DNA of 64,000 bases from Bacteroidales bacterium (lineage in GTDB: Bacteria > Bacteroidota > Bacteroidia > Bacteroidales > UBA932), in contig JAEELG010000078.1 of the NCBI GenBank assembly GCA_016288775.1, positions 1 to 64,000 of the forward strand, in the 5' to 3' direction. The position numbers and the translations under genes were made by a program. The notes beneath the pieces are model-generated. The model was not told the origin of the DNA, did not search any database, and saw only the letters and a program-made list of their open reading frames with translations. The stretch's first letter is position 1; each line of letters begins with the position of its first letter. Below, in pieces: positions 6,203 to 19,560 of the stretch.

Positions 6203-6781
6203 ATGCAACATTTCGAACTGAACGGTCAGATCCGCGAGGTGGCCGGAAAGGCTGCCATCAAGGCATTCCGCAAGCAGGGCCTCGTCCCTTGCAATCTCTA
6301 TGGCCCCGGCCTCGAGAACGTACTTTTCACCGTTAACGCCAAAGACCTCAAGGCTGTCACCGACACGCCCAAGGCCCACATCATCGACCTCGTGCTCGAC
6401 GGCAAGAAGAAATACACCGCCGTGCTCCACGAGCTCCAGTGGCACCCTGTGACCGACATCTGCCTCCACGTCGACTTCCTCGCCGTGAACGACAAGAAGC
6501 CCGTCAACATTGAGGTTCCCATCGTTATCACCGGCCATGCAGTCGGTGTCCAGAAGGGTGGCAAGTTCTTCCAGAACGCCCGCAAACTCCGCGTCTGCGC
6601 AACCCTGAAGAACCTTCCCGACGAAGTTACCATCGACATCACCTCCCTCGATCTGGACAAGAAGATCAAGGCCGGCGACGTCAAGCTCGATGGCATTACC
6701 GTCACCACCGACAAGGACGCCATCATCTGCGGCGTGAAGACGACCCGCAACACCGTCGTCGCCACCGAAGAGGCTGCCTAA
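6203..6781 (+). CDS. rplY: 50S ribosomal protein L25/general stress protein Ctc
   Basis: L25 N-terminal domain plus TL5 C-terminal domain; followed by pth as in many bacteria. Confidence 0.93.
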   Translation: MQHFELNGQIREVAGKAAIKAFRKQGLVPCNLYGPGLENVLFTVNAKDLKAVTDTPKAHIIDLVLDGKKKYTAVLHELQWHPVTDICLHVDFLAVNDKKPVNIEVPIVITGHAVGVQKGGKFFQNARKLRVCATLKNLPDEVTIDITSLDLDKKIKAGDVKLDGITVTTDKDAIICGVKTTRNTVVATEEAA

Positions 6782-6783
6782 TC

Positions 6784-7386
6784 GTGTCTGACAAGAGTTA
6801 TCTGGTAGTCGGACTCGGCAACATAGGTGCCGAATACGCCGCCACCAGACATAACATCGGATTCATGGTATTGGACGCCTGGGCTCAGGCGTCCAATATT
6901 TCATTCGAAACGAAGCGCTACGGCGACGTCGCAACCGACGCCGTCAAGGGACGCAAGTTCCATCTGCTCAAGCCTTCCACCTACATGAACCTCAGCGGCT
7001 ACGCCGTCCGCTACTGGCTGCAGGAGCTCGACATTCCGCTGGAGAACCTGATCGTCATCTGCGACGACATCAATCTTCCATTCGGTACCGTACGCATGCG
7101 CATGAACGGCAGCGACGGAGGCCACAACGGCCTTGGAAGCGTGGAGGAACTTCTGGAAACCAGGCAGTACGCCCGCATACGCCTGGGGGTAGGTCACGAA
7201 TTCTCGGAAGGCGGGCAAATCAGATTCGTGCTGGGAGACTTAACCCCCGATCAGCGCGAAGAAGTTGCGGCCATCGCCGTCAAGGTTACTGCCGGAATCA
7301 AAACCTGGGCTTTCGTTGGAGCCCAGAAGGCAATGACAGAACTTAACACCAAGCCGAATGTCGCGGAAAATACACCGAATCAATAA
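6784..7386 (+). CDS. pth: Peptidyl-tRNA hydrolase
   Basis: VGLGNIGAEYAATRHNIGFMVLD ... GSDGGHNGLGSV; GTG start. Confidence 0.95.
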   Translation: MSDKSYLVVGLGNIGAEYAATRHNIGFMVLDAWAQASNISFETKRYGDVATDAVKGRKFHLLKPSTYMNLSGYAVRYWLQELDIPLENLIVICDDINLPFGTVRMRMNGSDGGHNGLGSVEELLETRQYARIRLGVGHEFSEGGQIRFVLGDLTPDQREEVAAIAVKVTAGIKTWAFVGAQKAMTELNTKPNVAENTPNQ

Positions 7387-7789: not shown

Positions 7790-9517
7790 ATGACTAAGCG
7801 CCTGATTTCCACTATGATAGCCTTTACCCTCCCGCTGCTTGCAGCAGCCCAGGGCTTCAGGGCGGTTGTCATACCCGTGGAATTCAGCGACGAAACGTTC
7901 AAAGACAAAAACAAGAACGTAGTCGAAAAAATTTCCAGGGCCCGGACATATTTCAACGACCAGTTCAGTCCTGTAAAGTCATTTTCTTTCGATATTCTCC
8001 CCACCGTCAGGCTGCAGAAAGAGCTTTCCTGGTACGGCGCCAATTCTTCCAGCGCCAAGGACAGCCGCATCGACGAGCTGGTTCGGGACGCCGTCGCAGC
8101 TCTCCGTAACGATTTCTCCGTATACGACAACGACGGCGACGGTACAATCGACAACATCTGCATAATTGCGGCAGGCGGCAGCGAGGCCGACGGCGACGGA
8201 GCGGACTGCATCTGGCCCCAGCAGCTGTACCTGAAAGAGCGGGGCGGCAGTTTCGCGCGCGACGGCAAGACCGTCGACAGCTTCTGCATATGCGTCGAGA
8301 AATCCGGTCTCGGCACTTTCTGCCACGAATTCGCCCACAGTTTCGGCCTTCAGGACCTTTACGACACCGACGGGAATGGCTCCGGAGGCACTGCGCCCGG
8401 ACTCTGGGGCTCCCTGAGCCTTATGGACAAGGGAGGCGACAACGACGGAGGCAACACTCCCCCCAATTTCTGCGCTATCGAACTTGAGCAGCTGGGCCTG
8501 GGCAAGCAGATAGAGCTCAAGCGCGGGTATCACCGCCTGCACCCCATTTCCGAAAGCAAGGAATATCTCCGGATCGACACGGACACCAAGGACGAGTATT
8601 TCCTTCTGGAATGTCGCGACAACGCCGGCTGGGACGCCTTCACAGGCGGCAGGGGCCTTCTGGTTTACCACATCGACAAATCCGCCAATAACAGTTGGTA
8701 TTCAGACTATTACAGGCGCAATCTCACTGCCCGGGAGCGCTGGGATGACAATCAGGTGAACTGCCGTCCCGACCACCAGTGCGCCAGGCTCCTGGCTGCG
8801 ACCCCCGGCACCTCCGACGTCAGCAAGATGTTCTTCCCTCTCGAAGGGCGCACGGCATTGGGAGCGGAAACCGACCCCTCCCTCAAATACTGGAGCGGCG
8901 CCACCTCCTCCCTGGCAATCGACCACATTACGCTGGAACTGGACGGAAGCGTCAGTTTCAACGTAATCACTCCGGTGGTCATGCGCGAATCCATGGTCTT
9001 CCAGGACGCCGCCATCTTCAGCTGGAGCGTCGACAACACGCTTTCGGTGGAGAGCTGCACCGTCAGCTGGCATTCCAGCGGCAACAAATCCTACGGAAAC
9101 ATAGGCACCGACACCGCAAACAGGCTGACTGACGGCACCTTTACGGTTACTGTCGAGGGCCTGTCGCCGTCGACAGGGTACGTCCTGCAAATTAAACTGA
9201 TGTGCAGCGACGGCAGCGTACATGCTTACAGCATGGATTTCACCACCAAGAGCAGGCCCAACGGAGCTCGCCCTTTCATCTACCTGAAGAACATTTCCAG
9301 GCGTGACGACGGTTCTTTCCCGACAGGTGAACGCATCCCGCTCAGGATCTTCAACGGCCAGGGAGTGAAACAGGTACAGTGGTTCTTCGATGACATGCGC
9401 ATAGCCCCCGGCCTGGATGGTTTCTGGTATCTGCGCACCAGCGGCACACTCAAGGCCCACGTATGGTACCAAGACGGCAGCAAGGACGTGATAATCAGAA
9501 AAATGGAAGTAAGATGA
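7790..9517 (+). CDS. Secreted M6-family (immune inhibitor A-like) metalloprotease
   Basis: Signal peptide, TFCHEFAHSFGLQDLYDTDG (HExxHxxGxxD), GLWGSLSLMDKGG; C-terminal Ig/Fn3-like region. Confidence 0.88.
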   Translation: MTKRLISTMIAFTLPLLAAAQGFRAVVIPVEFSDETFKDKNKNVVEKISRARTYFNDQFSPVKSFSFDILPTVRLQKELSWYGANSSSAKDSRIDELVRDAVAALRNDFSVYDNDGDGTIDNICIIAAGGSEADGDGADCIWPQQLYLKERGGSFARDGKTVDSFCICVEKSGLGTFCHEFAHSFGLQDLYDTDGNGSGGTAPGLWGSLSLMDKGGDNDGGNTPPNFCAIELEQLGLGKQIELKRGYHRLHPISESKEYLRIDTDTKDEYFLLECRDNAGWDAFTGGRGLLVYHIDKSANNSWYSDYYRRNLTARERWDDNQVNCRPDHQCARLLAATPGTSDVSKMFFPLEGRTALGAETDPSLKYWSGATSSLAIDHITLELDGSVSFNVITPVVMRESMVFQDAAIFSWSVDNTLSVESCTVSWHSSGNKSYGNIGTDTANRLTDGTFTVTVEGLSPSTGYVLQIKLMCSDGSVHAYSMDFTTKSRPNGARPFIYLKNISRRDDGSFPTGERIPLRIFNGQGVKQVQWFFDDMRIAPGLDGFWYLRTSGTLKAHVWYQDGSKDVIIRKMEVR

Positions 9518-16960: not shown

Positions 16961-17419
16961 ATGAAGAAAGTCAAATTCACCGTCCTGGATAAGCTCCTGA
17001 CGCTGCTGGGATTCTCGTCAGCCATGCTGGTCGGGCAATCATGCGCCATGTACGGCGAGCCATATGGAATCTTCTCCTACAGAATCAAGGTCACCGACGA
17101 AGCCAACATCCCCATCCAGGGAATGCGAGTGATTTACAAGTCCGACGGAACCGATGACGCATGGCTCAAAGACACCACGTATACCGATGCTAACGGGCTG
17201 GTACAGAAGGAAATCGGTACTCCGATGATCGACACGCGAATGTCATTTGCCATCGATGACGTGGACGGCCCCGCACACGGTGGACTGTATGCTTCGAAGA
17301 CTGTCGGGTATCATGATCTCGAAAAGGTTCAGACGGAAAAGGGCCGGGGATTCTACGAAGGCAGTTTCGAATACAGCGCCGACGTAAAACTCGAACTCCT
17401 GCACGAAGGACAGGACTGA
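16961..17419 (+). CDS. Radical-SAM-associated putative lipoprotein (rSAM/lipoprotein system)
   Basis: Signal peptide with GQSC lipobox followed by AMYGEPYG, Ig-like carboxypeptidase-regulatory-type domain; 4 nt upstream of the rSAM gene. Confidence 0.8.
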   Translation: MKKVKFTVLDKLLTLLGFSSAMLVGQSCAMYGEPYGIFSYRIKVTDEANIPIQGMRVIYKSDGTDDAWLKDTTYTDANGLVQKEIGTPMIDTRMSFAIDDVDGPAHGGLYASKTVGYHDLEKVQTEKGRGFYEGSFEYSADVKLELLHEGQD

Positions 17420-17423
17420 CGCG

Positions 17424-18506
17424 ATGGCAGAGAAACTCGGACTCAGGCGCCGTCTGGCGCTGGACATAGCAGGTAAACTCTACGACAATCTGAGGGAGCG
17501 GCACCAGTTGATGCAGCTCTTCTGGGAGTGCACGCTGCGCTGCAACCTGAGCTGCCGGCACTGCGGCAGCGACTGCAAGGCAACTGCGGCTTGCAAGGAC
17601 ATGCCGATCGAGGATTTTGCCAGGGTGCTCGACAGCGTTGCCGCGGCCACCGACCCCCATAAGGTGATGGTCAACGTCACCGGAGGAGAACCCCTCATGC
17701 GCACCGACCTGGAGCGCTGCGGGCGCATAATCTACGAAAAGGGCTTCCCATGGGGCATGGTTACAAACGGCCTTGCGCTCACCCCGGAGCGCTATAAGCG
17801 CCTGCTGCAGAGCGGCCTGCGCGCCATGACCATTTCACTCGACGGAATCGGCGAAGACCACGACTGGATGCGCGGGCGCAAGGGTTCCTATGAGCGCGCC
17901 ATCGCCGCCATCAGGATGGTGGTGGAGTCCGGAGAGATAGAATTCGACGTGGTGACCTGCGTCAACCGCCGCAACTATCCCAAACTCAATGAAATCAAAG
18001 AGTTGCTTATAAGCACGGGGCTGAAGGAATGGCGCCTGTTCACGGTGTTCCCCATGGGGCGCGGCGCCGAAGATCCCGACCTGCAGCTCAGCGGCGAACA
18101 GTTCCGCGGACTTATGGAGTTCATCAAGGCCACCCGAAAGGAGGGCCGCATCAAGGCCGCATACGGCTGTGAGGGCTTCCTGGGGCATTATGAAGGCGAC
18201 GTCCGCGACCATTTCTTCCTGTGCAACGCCGGCATAAGCGTCGGAGGCGTACTCTGCGACGGCAGCATTTCGGCCTGCACCAGCATCCGCGCCGACTACC
18301 ATCAGGGCAACATCTACAAGGACGATTTCATGGAGGTGTGGAACAATCGCTTCCAGCCCTACCGCGACCATAGCTGGATGTACAGGGACGATTGCGCGGA
18401 GTGCAGATTCTGGAAATACTGCCAGGGCAGCGGCATGCATCTGCGCGACGGCGACGGAAAACTCATACTCTGCCACCTCAAACGACTGGAGGAAACGGAA
18501 AAATAG
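17424..18506 (+). CDS. Radical SAM/SPASM enzyme of the rSAM/lipoprotein system
   Basis: CNLSCRHC (CxxxCxxC) motif, NVTGGEPLMR, C-terminal CAECRFWKYC (CX2CX5C) SPASM hallmark. Confidence 0.9.
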   Translation: MAEKLGLRRRLALDIAGKLYDNLRERHQLMQLFWECTLRCNLSCRHCGSDCKATAACKDMPIEDFARVLDSVAAATDPHKVMVNVTGGEPLMRTDLERCGRIIYEKGFPWGMVTNGLALTPERYKRLLQSGLRAMTISLDGIGEDHDWMRGRKGSYERAIAAIRMVVESGEIEFDVVTCVNRRNYPKLNEIKELLISTGLKEWRLFTVFPMGRGAEDPDLQLSGEQFRGLMEFIKATRKEGRIKAAYGCEGFLGHYEGDVRDHFFLCNAGISVGGVLCDGSISACTSIRADYHQGNIYKDDFMEVWNNRFQPYRDHSWMYRDDCAECRFWKYCQGSGMHLRDGDGKLILCHLKRLEETEK

Positions 18507-18521
18507 CTATATTTGTGCATT

Positions 18522-19346
18522 ATGCGCAAGTTGGCAAGCCTCCTGCTTCCGTTTATCCTGCTTTTTGCCGCCGCTCCCGCCATGGGGCAGCAGGCCGACA
18601 GTTTACTGTTCGCGAAGCTGGATTCCATGCTTACCCGCTACACCGCCGCCATCGAGCCGGAGAGTGTCGATGTCAAGAACGCGGAATGCGACTTTCTTAT
18701 CTCGTCGGTACACGATTCCCTTACTACACAGCACGTTGCGCTATGGTTGTATGACCACTACAAGGAGTCGCAGCTGATGGGCGAGGAGGCGGTGGCCATA
18801 CACATCTACGACGACTGGTTCAAACCCGGAACGATAGCGATGCGCAGCCGCATCGACCTGTTCGACGCCGAGCTGTTCGCCACCTTCAACCGCTCCACTC
18901 TGCTTGGGGAGAAGGCTCCGGTGATAGATGTCTACAACCCCTGCGGCCGCAAGGTCAGGATTCCGCAGGAAGGCAGCTACTCGATCCTTTTCTTCTTCGA
19001 CACCAGCTGCGGCAAATGCAAGCTAACGGCCCAGATGCTGCCCCAGGTGCTTGAAAAAATCACCTTCCCCACTAAGTTCTACGCCGTATATTGCGGGCAG
19101 GACAAGAAAGAATGGAGGCGCTTCCGCCAGGGCTTCAAAGTGCGCAACCGCAAGGTTGGAGTAGTGCACGCCTGGGACCCCGAAGTCAAGAGCGACTACC
19201 TCCGCCTTTACGGAGTGATGTCCACTCCCCGCCTGTATTTTGCCGACACCGACGGCGAAATACTTGGCCGACGCCTTGAAATTGAATCACTTGACGAAAT
19301 TATTCATTATATTTGCGATTACTATGGCCAAACGCAAAAGCAATAA
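18522..19346 (+). CDS. Secreted TlpA-like thioredoxin-fold protein
   Basis: Signal peptide; ILFFFDTSCGKCKLTAQMLPQV (CxxC) and GVMSTPRLYFADTDGEILGRRL. Confidence 0.82.
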   Translation: MRKLASLLLPFILLFAAAPAMGQQADSLLFAKLDSMLTRYTAAIEPESVDVKNAECDFLISSVHDSLTTQHVALWLYDHYKESQLMGEEAVAIHIYDDWFKPGTIAMRSRIDLFDAELFATFNRSTLLGEKAPVIDVYNPCGRKVRIPQEGSYSILFFFDTSCGKCKLTAQMLPQVLEKITFPTKFYAVYCGQDKKEWRRFRQGFKVRNRKVGVVHAWDPEVKSDYLRLYGVMSTPRLYFADTDGEILGRRLEIESLDEIIHYICDYYGQTQKQ

Positions 19347-19560
19347 AATCCAGGGAGTGGATCCGGCGTACTTCGACAAGCAGCGCGAAGCCCTTCGACA
19401 CAGCCACCGCAAATCAGTATTCTTTAACGACAAGGAGCTCGCCGCAATCAACGAGTACTGCCGCCGCTTCAAGGTCAGTTCACGCTCCGCCCTCATCCGC
19501 CAGGCTGTCATGGAGCGCGTCCTCCGTGGCCTGGAAGAGAATCATCCTACGTTGTTCTGA
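19324..19560 (+). CDS. Small ribbon-helix-helix-like protein (78 aa)
   Basis: KSVFFNDKELAAINEYCRRFKVSSRSALIRQAVMERVLRGLEENHPTLF; own -7 TATATTTG at 19308. Confidence 0.7.
   Translation: MAKRKSNKIQGVDPAYFDKQREALRHSHRKSVFFNDKELAAINEYCRRFKVSSRSALIRQAVMERVLRGLEENHPTLF

Follow-up and report, generated by a model that had tools for sequence, protein, structure and literature searches.

A Bacteroidales radical SAM/SPASM enzyme and its partner lipoproteins: an X-Tyr-Gly motif as probable target and a proposed splicease reaction

Genes and features of the locus

The window analysed here (a 64,000-nucleotide stretch) is contig C98 of a 2.3-Mb genome that is 83.6% complete. Three consecutive genes in the window encode a lipoprotein, a radical SAM/SPASM enzyme and a thioredoxin-like protein.

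16961..17419, + strand: partner lipoprotein, 152 aa, with a signal helix, lipobox Cys28, an XYG linker and a transthyretin/CarboxypepD-like beta sandwich
17042..17044, + strand: lipobox Cys28, the sole Cys of the lipoprotein (direct reading)
17048..17062, + strand: proposed modification site M30-Y31-G32-E33-P34 (XYGxP), from alignment invariance and motif statistics
17060..17068, + strand: second candidate XYG site P34-Y35-G36 (direct reading), not conserved in relatives
17424..18506, + strand: 360-aa radical SAM/SPASM enzyme, a proposed splicease of lipoproteins (TIGR04133, Pfam, AlphaFold2)
17541..17564, + strand: CNLSCRHC, the [4Fe-4S]-SAM cluster motif (C40, C44, C47), invariant in 24 relatives
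18222..18473, + strand: SPASM region (C267, C285, C324, C327, C333, C350), from sequence comparison with relatives
18522..19346, + strand: secreted thioredoxin-like protein with CGKC (PF13098/PF13905), judged to lie outside the system

The stop codon of the lipoprotein gene (17417-17419) and the ATG of the enzyme gene (17424) are separated by 4 nt. The lipoprotein scores 75.1 bits against the NCBIfam model TIGR04134 (cut-off 39.8) and the enzyme scores 574.3 bits against TIGR04133 (cut-off 425), with the Pfam Radical_SAM and SPASM models also above their cut-offs. The lipobox of the window lipoprotein is imperfect, with Gly at -3 (...LVGQSC-AMYGEPYG), and its relatives have clear lipoboxes. 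An earlier reading of this DNA, made from the sequence only, had described the single Cys of the lipoprotein, the 4-nt gap, the CxxxCxxC and CX2CX5C motifs of the enzyme and the CGKC gene, and all of these are borne out by direct reading and by the family scores.

The same sequence-only reading had also assigned the thioredoxin-like gene to the system. This gene begins with an ATG at 18522, 15 nt downstream of the enzyme gene and on the same strand, and ends with a stop codon at 19346; its product has a signal peptide and matches PF13098 and PF13905 above cut-off. Such a position, together with secretion and the CGKC motif, would suit a thioredoxin-like protein that assists lipoprotein maturation as the third member of the system. 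Against this, no homologue was found at any of the 198 other loci that carry the enzyme (E 1e-5), and there is no disulphide in the lipoprotein for such a protein to act on. The gene is therefore a bystander rather than a component, and we regard a three-gene system as extremely improbable. A small ribbon-helix-helix gene (19324-19560) overlaps the end of the thioredoxin-like gene and is not conserved near other enzymes.

Co-occurrence of the enzyme and the lipoprotein

The distribution of the pair was computed across 394 genomes from the same order as the window, with a TIGR04133-type enzyme called at E <= 1e-60. The enzyme was identified in 100 of the 394 genomes, about a quarter of the sampled species, and a lipoprotein above the TIGR04134 cut-off in 60. 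Among the genomes with a TIGR04134 lipoprotein, 57 of 60 also encode the enzyme, compared with 43 of the 334 that lack such a lipoprotein (Fisher p = 3e-37). The pairing is thus established and is not due to chance, in agreement with the family association known for these genes; the phylogenetic profile that had been proposed as a check shows the two genes occurring together, though certain lipoprotein genes lie apart from any enzyme gene. The lipoprotein is present without a full enzyme in three genomes, G307, G370 and G228: G228 carries an enzyme fragment at a contig end, the G370 genome is 75% complete, and G307 is left as an exception. Matches to TIGR04133 include Prevotella, Phocaeicola, Parabacteroides and Alistipes, and a plasmid of Treponema saccharophilum, outside the Bacteroidota, also carries the pair.

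The genome of the window encodes a second TIGR04133 enzyme (G000 contig C10:1-2436, L002/L216), next to a divergently transcribed lipoprotein in which the lipobox is followed by CYGMPQ (CYGMPQNAMEEE) and which the TIGR04134 model misses. Contig C88 of the same genome encodes two TIGR04134 lipoproteins with XYGQP (6611-7075 and 8289-8750; L006 and L007) and no enzyme nearby. Since some lipoproteins are unlinked in this way, the enzyme probably acts in trans as well. One of the two lipoproteins on contig C88 adjoins a GH18-like lipoprotein ORF.

The XYG motif in lipoproteins beside the enzyme

A total of 199 enzyme neighbourhoods were gathered for motif analysis. Lipobox ORFs directly upstream of the radical SAM gene (n=120) were compared with lipobox ORFs more than 2.5 kb from the enzyme in the same loci (n=154), and the motif was scored within 45 residues of the Cys. 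YG is present in 111/120 adjacent ORFs and in 15/154 distant ones (Fisher 8e-48), and YGxP in 105/120 and 1/154, respectively (Fisher 6e-58). FG without YG occurs in none of the 120 adjacent ORFs and in 12 of the 154 controls, so that the aromatic residue is Tyr and never Phe. Y31, G32 and P34 are also invariant in an alignment of 24 lipoproteins with a mean column identity of 42%, but these lipoproteins were selected by motif, and the adjacency test is therefore the unbiased one. At loci recruited by the TIGR04134 model, YG.P was found in 31 of 32 checked; the exception (L055) is an artefact of the edge of the locus, and MYGMPYPEYGTP is seen in its neighbourhood.

In 156 distinct partners, E, C and M predominate at the X of XYG. 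YG is followed by T, S, V, M, Q or another residue but in no case by Gly (0/156), and this position thus always has a beta carbon. Pro stands two residues after YG in 150 of the 156. Four lipoproteins have lost the Pro and kept YG (CYGTAY, CYGTLN, CYGTDK and CYGVDE), which indicates that YG is the core of the motif and Pro is accessory, as judged from these sequences. With the strict pattern, a YGxP lipoprotein lies near the enzyme in 160 of the 199 loci. Reading by eye, rather than a scripted count, adds about 24 further loci with another XYG partner; of the loci left over, at least three are truncated where the contig ends, and three contain outlier enzymes below cut-off. At each of three loci (L155, L156 and L142), three XYG lipoproteins stand in tandem upstream of a single enzyme, suggesting displayed lipoproteins that are diversifying.

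The AlphaFold2 model of the window lipoprotein (pLDDT 84) has a signal helix followed by coil (residues 16-34) and a sandwich (residues 35-143). Its fold matches sandwiches of the intradiol-dioxygenase and transthyretin-like types, and also the N-terminal extension in a SusC transporter. Cys28 and Tyr31-Gly32 both fall in the coil between anchor and sandwich, which in this model places the predicted modification site in an accessible linker between the lipid anchor and the domain.

XYG motifs on unrelated scaffolds

The partners found here exceed TIGR04134; many are below its cut-off or share only XYG. Coiled lipoproteins (L190 and relatives, and L178) have two sites, CVYGSPEV and AKVYGPPEM. 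At their C terminus, short lipopeptides (L203, L215) repeat KYG[VI]x three times. In L189, L197 and L211, which appear to be Sec-secreted, AQYG follows immediately after a site of the signal peptidase I type. Beside another TIGR04133 enzyme (G329:C64), L214 (2185-2659) encodes a cytosolic-looking peptide without a signal peptide that has three VEC[IV]YGPPPG units, each within a near-identical VEC[IV]YGPPPGFDDDY repeat. In this it resembles a RiPP precursor of the classical multi-core type. Beyond the motif, little similarity was detected between these scaffold classes: the match of L138 with L214 is restricted to 18 residues around the motif, and L189 and L241 have the sandwich domain in common.

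What these unrelated proteins have in common is linkage to the enzyme, and XYG is best explained as its recognition and reaction site. We consider this strongly supported, and a modification at XYG very probable. The sequence-only reading had named the Tyr/Gly/Pro-rich stretch after the lipobox as a candidate target, and the adjacency statistics uphold that choice; it had not seen that YG is the invariant core and Pro accessory, that the motif recurs on unrelated scaffolds, or that it matches the XYG of spliceases. YGxP could instead be a structural or sorting motif of a co-inherited lipoprotein family that undergoes no modification. Its location in the main family, where it borders the domain, and the two unlinked lipoproteins of the window's genome would fit this view. 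A motif present on unrelated but enzyme-linked proteins, in multiple copies and even in the signal-less L214, does not, and its presence in only 1/154 other lipoproteins argues against a general export signal. A purely structural or sorting role is accordingly quite improbable.

The enzyme and its relatives

Besides the cluster motif, Cys residues conserved in relatives of the enzyme are C51, C249, C267, C285 and C350. The CX2CX5C of the window enzyme is DCAECRFWKYC, and the Cys usually located three residues after it is replaced (C-x-G-N/S-G-M-H, as GNGMH or GSGMH). The AlphaFold2 model (pLDDT 86) shows a radical SAM barrel and a SPASM region, with no apparent RRE domain. The nearest solved structures are SkfB, SuiB and PqqE, with SkfB and SuiB the best; no splicease was among the solved structures matched.

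Against TIGR04103, the window enzyme scores 126.7 bits, far below the cut-off of 725, and the models for TIGR04053 and AhbD give it slightly higher scores than TIGR04103 does. Membership in TIGR04103 is thus ruled out on score, and the enzyme is proposed only to work like a splicease. Relatives outside the family were sought by tblastn against plasmids. The best match outside TIGR04133 is an Agathobacter enzyme (140 bits) beside an unannotated ORF ending VMYGTGVRM, and the other best match is a Nostoc enzyme (132 bits). For the XYG-associated enzymes of Agathobacter, Aureibacter and Tropicibacter, TIGR04133 is in turn the third-best model after TIGR04103 and TIGR03913. The CxHCGS and GY[LY]GxYE motifs are common to TIGR04133 and the XYG-associated enzymes. 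C249, invariant in TIGR04133, is present in the Agathobacter enzyme and is Asn in Nostoc; together with the replaced SPASM Cys, this suggests that the clusters of TIGR04133 enzymes may differ. In an unrooted tree, TIGR04133 sits on a long branch and joins the XYG enzymes at a non-significant support of 80/59. Sisterhood with spliceases could not be proved from this in two attempts, being undecidable without a root.

Two of these plasmid loci contain further XYG sequences. On the Agathobacter rectalis plasmid (NZ_CP143948.1), the ORF ending VMYGTGVRM has 35 codons (L268 3808-3915) and lies upstream of the radical SAM gene; it is likely a spliceotide-type precursor in a human gut Firmicute. On a Tropicibacter oceani plasmid, a phosphotransferase (L277 1224-2195) beside a GDL-like radical SAM enzyme has FYGLPPG near its N terminus, which may be a target or chance.

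Proposed reaction and its alternatives

We propose XYG in the partner lipoproteins as the site that the TIGR04133 enzyme modifies, and splicing as its most likely reaction. The enzyme would cut tyramine from the protein backbone at Tyr-Gly (-135.07 Da) and leave a reactive ketone. In the window, the main site would be M30-Y31-G32, two residues after the lipidated Cys and in the flexible linker between the anchor and the beta sandwich, and the product would be a lipoprotein with an electrophilic alpha-ketoamide next to the membrane. The proposal draws on the ALYGLPPELF end of a Nostoc TIGR04103 precursor and on the XYG-associated families that score nearest to TIGR04133. On these grounds we favour, with some reserve, the view that TIGR04133 enzymes are lipoprotein spliceases.

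The same Tyr could alternatively be crosslinked, with a cyclophane or ether bond from its ring to the side chain two residues on (Y-G-x), as in triceptides. SPASM enzymes commonly form such bonds, the residue after YG always carries the beta carbon needed, and a ring of three residues would be compatible with a Y-G-x-P turn. As a group, however, cyclophane enzymes also accept Trp and Phe, whereas TIGR04133 partners have strictly Tyr; the middle Gly is invariant and is not needed for crosslinking, and the enzymes nearest by score belong to XYG-precursor families rather than to cyclophane maturases. Taken together, a crosslink appears unlikely. A thioether crosslink, which the sequence-only reading had already thought improbable, is ruled out as the general reaction, since the lipobox Cys is the sole Cys in 94 of 157 distinct partners, as it is in the window lipoprotein.

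Other radical reactions centred on the Tyr or Gly were also considered, namely Calpha-Cbeta cleavage with no subsequent rejoining, a backbone cut after X, epimerisation and oxidation of the Tyr. A strict Tyr and Gly would suit several such chemistries, and a SPASM region that lacks one usual Cys may lead to an outcome different from that of PlpX. No known family was found to combine these reactions with an XYG code, and simple cleavage fits poorly with XYG sites located mid-protein in some large proteins. We rate this group of reactions as unlikely too, and retain splicing as the preferred reading.

In the broadest form of the splicease proposal, a widespread system of Bacteroidales, present also in Treponema, would splice tyramine from surface lipoproteins, and the envelope would display backbone alpha-ketoamides; we see the chances of this as about even. 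Lipoprotein spliceotides would then constitute a class of membrane-anchored natural beta-amino-acid proteins, and many symbionts would display electrophilic ketoamides on their surface lipoproteins. Protease inhibition and reaction with tetrazine probes are known properties of ketoamides. The system would then give insight into how proteases are controlled between host and microbe or among microbes, and would allow labelling of the lipoproteins in living cells. Spliceotides are reported to inhibit proteases (PMC11117315, PMC10373908), and from these reports we speculate that a ketoamide lipoprotein may serve as a tethered, reversible protease inhibitor or as a covalent attachment point. More immediately, an enzyme family common in gut and rumen Bacteroidales gains a candidate reaction and site that are specific and cheap to test.

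Comparison with known systems

The NCBIfam entries TIGR04133 (rSAM_w_lipo) and TIGR04134 (lipo_with_rSAM) describe the same arrangement as in the window, where the two proteins are adjacent and above both cut-offs. These entries give names without chemistry, and the partners described here reach beyond TIGR04134. A literature search, which did not cover the key survey of proteins and peptides, found no mention of TIGR04133 or TIGR04134 and no report linking spliceases or tyramine splicing to surface lipoproteins, so that novelty is provisional. The pair was already named as a family association; its probable XYG target is the new result.

The maturases of triceptides or cyclophanes, sactipeptides and ranthipeptides share the superfamily fold of the TIGR04133 enzyme. 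The thioether-forming enzymes of sactipeptides and ranthipeptides need an acceptor Cys, whereas TIGR04133 partners mostly have only the lipobox Cys. Triceptide maturases accept exchangeable aromatic residues, in contrast to the strict Tyr and invariant Gly here; a third residue with a beta carbon is common to both.

The GDL radical SAM enzymes (TIGR03913) score next to TIGR04103 and TIGR04133, and in several of the adjoining DUF1843 peptides LYG or PYG occurs close to the N terminus. These peptides differ in being small, cytosolic, helical proteins of Proteobacteria and Cytophagia, and some paralogues lack YG (PMYM, VLYA). No description of the chemistry of this system was found in the literature.

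Splicease chemistry is known from cyanobacterial peptides, and PlpX of Pleurocapsa works together with PlpY. TIGR04103 (nif11-class peptide rSAM maturase 3) is presumably the PlpX family, in keeping with InterPro and with the resemblance of the clusters. In the Nostoc sp. C057 cluster, a TIGR04103 enzyme (853 bits) is accompanied by a protein of 71 residues, placed where PlpY would be, and by the Nif11 precursor that ends ALYGLPPELF. PlpXY acts on XYG, with MYG and LYG as natural sites and PIRPLYGLPI as the tag derived from PlpA2, and works without a leader (PMC10533398); XYG sites of spliceases are also treated in PMC11002830 and PMC10373908. The X-Tyr-Gly of splicease substrates is present in the window as MYGEP. 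The two systems thus have in common a radical SAM/SPASM enzyme with shared sequence motifs, substrates bearing XYG and often XYGxP, several possible sites and independence from a leader (PMC10533398, PMC11002830). They differ in that TIGR04133 partners have signal peptides instead of a Nif11 or NHLP/nitrile-hydratase-like leader, that no PlpY-like RRE gene was seen between or beside the window genes, and that the enzyme has one SPASM Cys replaced and falls well short of the TIGR04103 cut-off. At X, E and C predominate in place of M or L, and the substrates of TIGR04133 enzymes are mostly exported lipoproteins, whereas those of PlpXY are secreted RiPPs.
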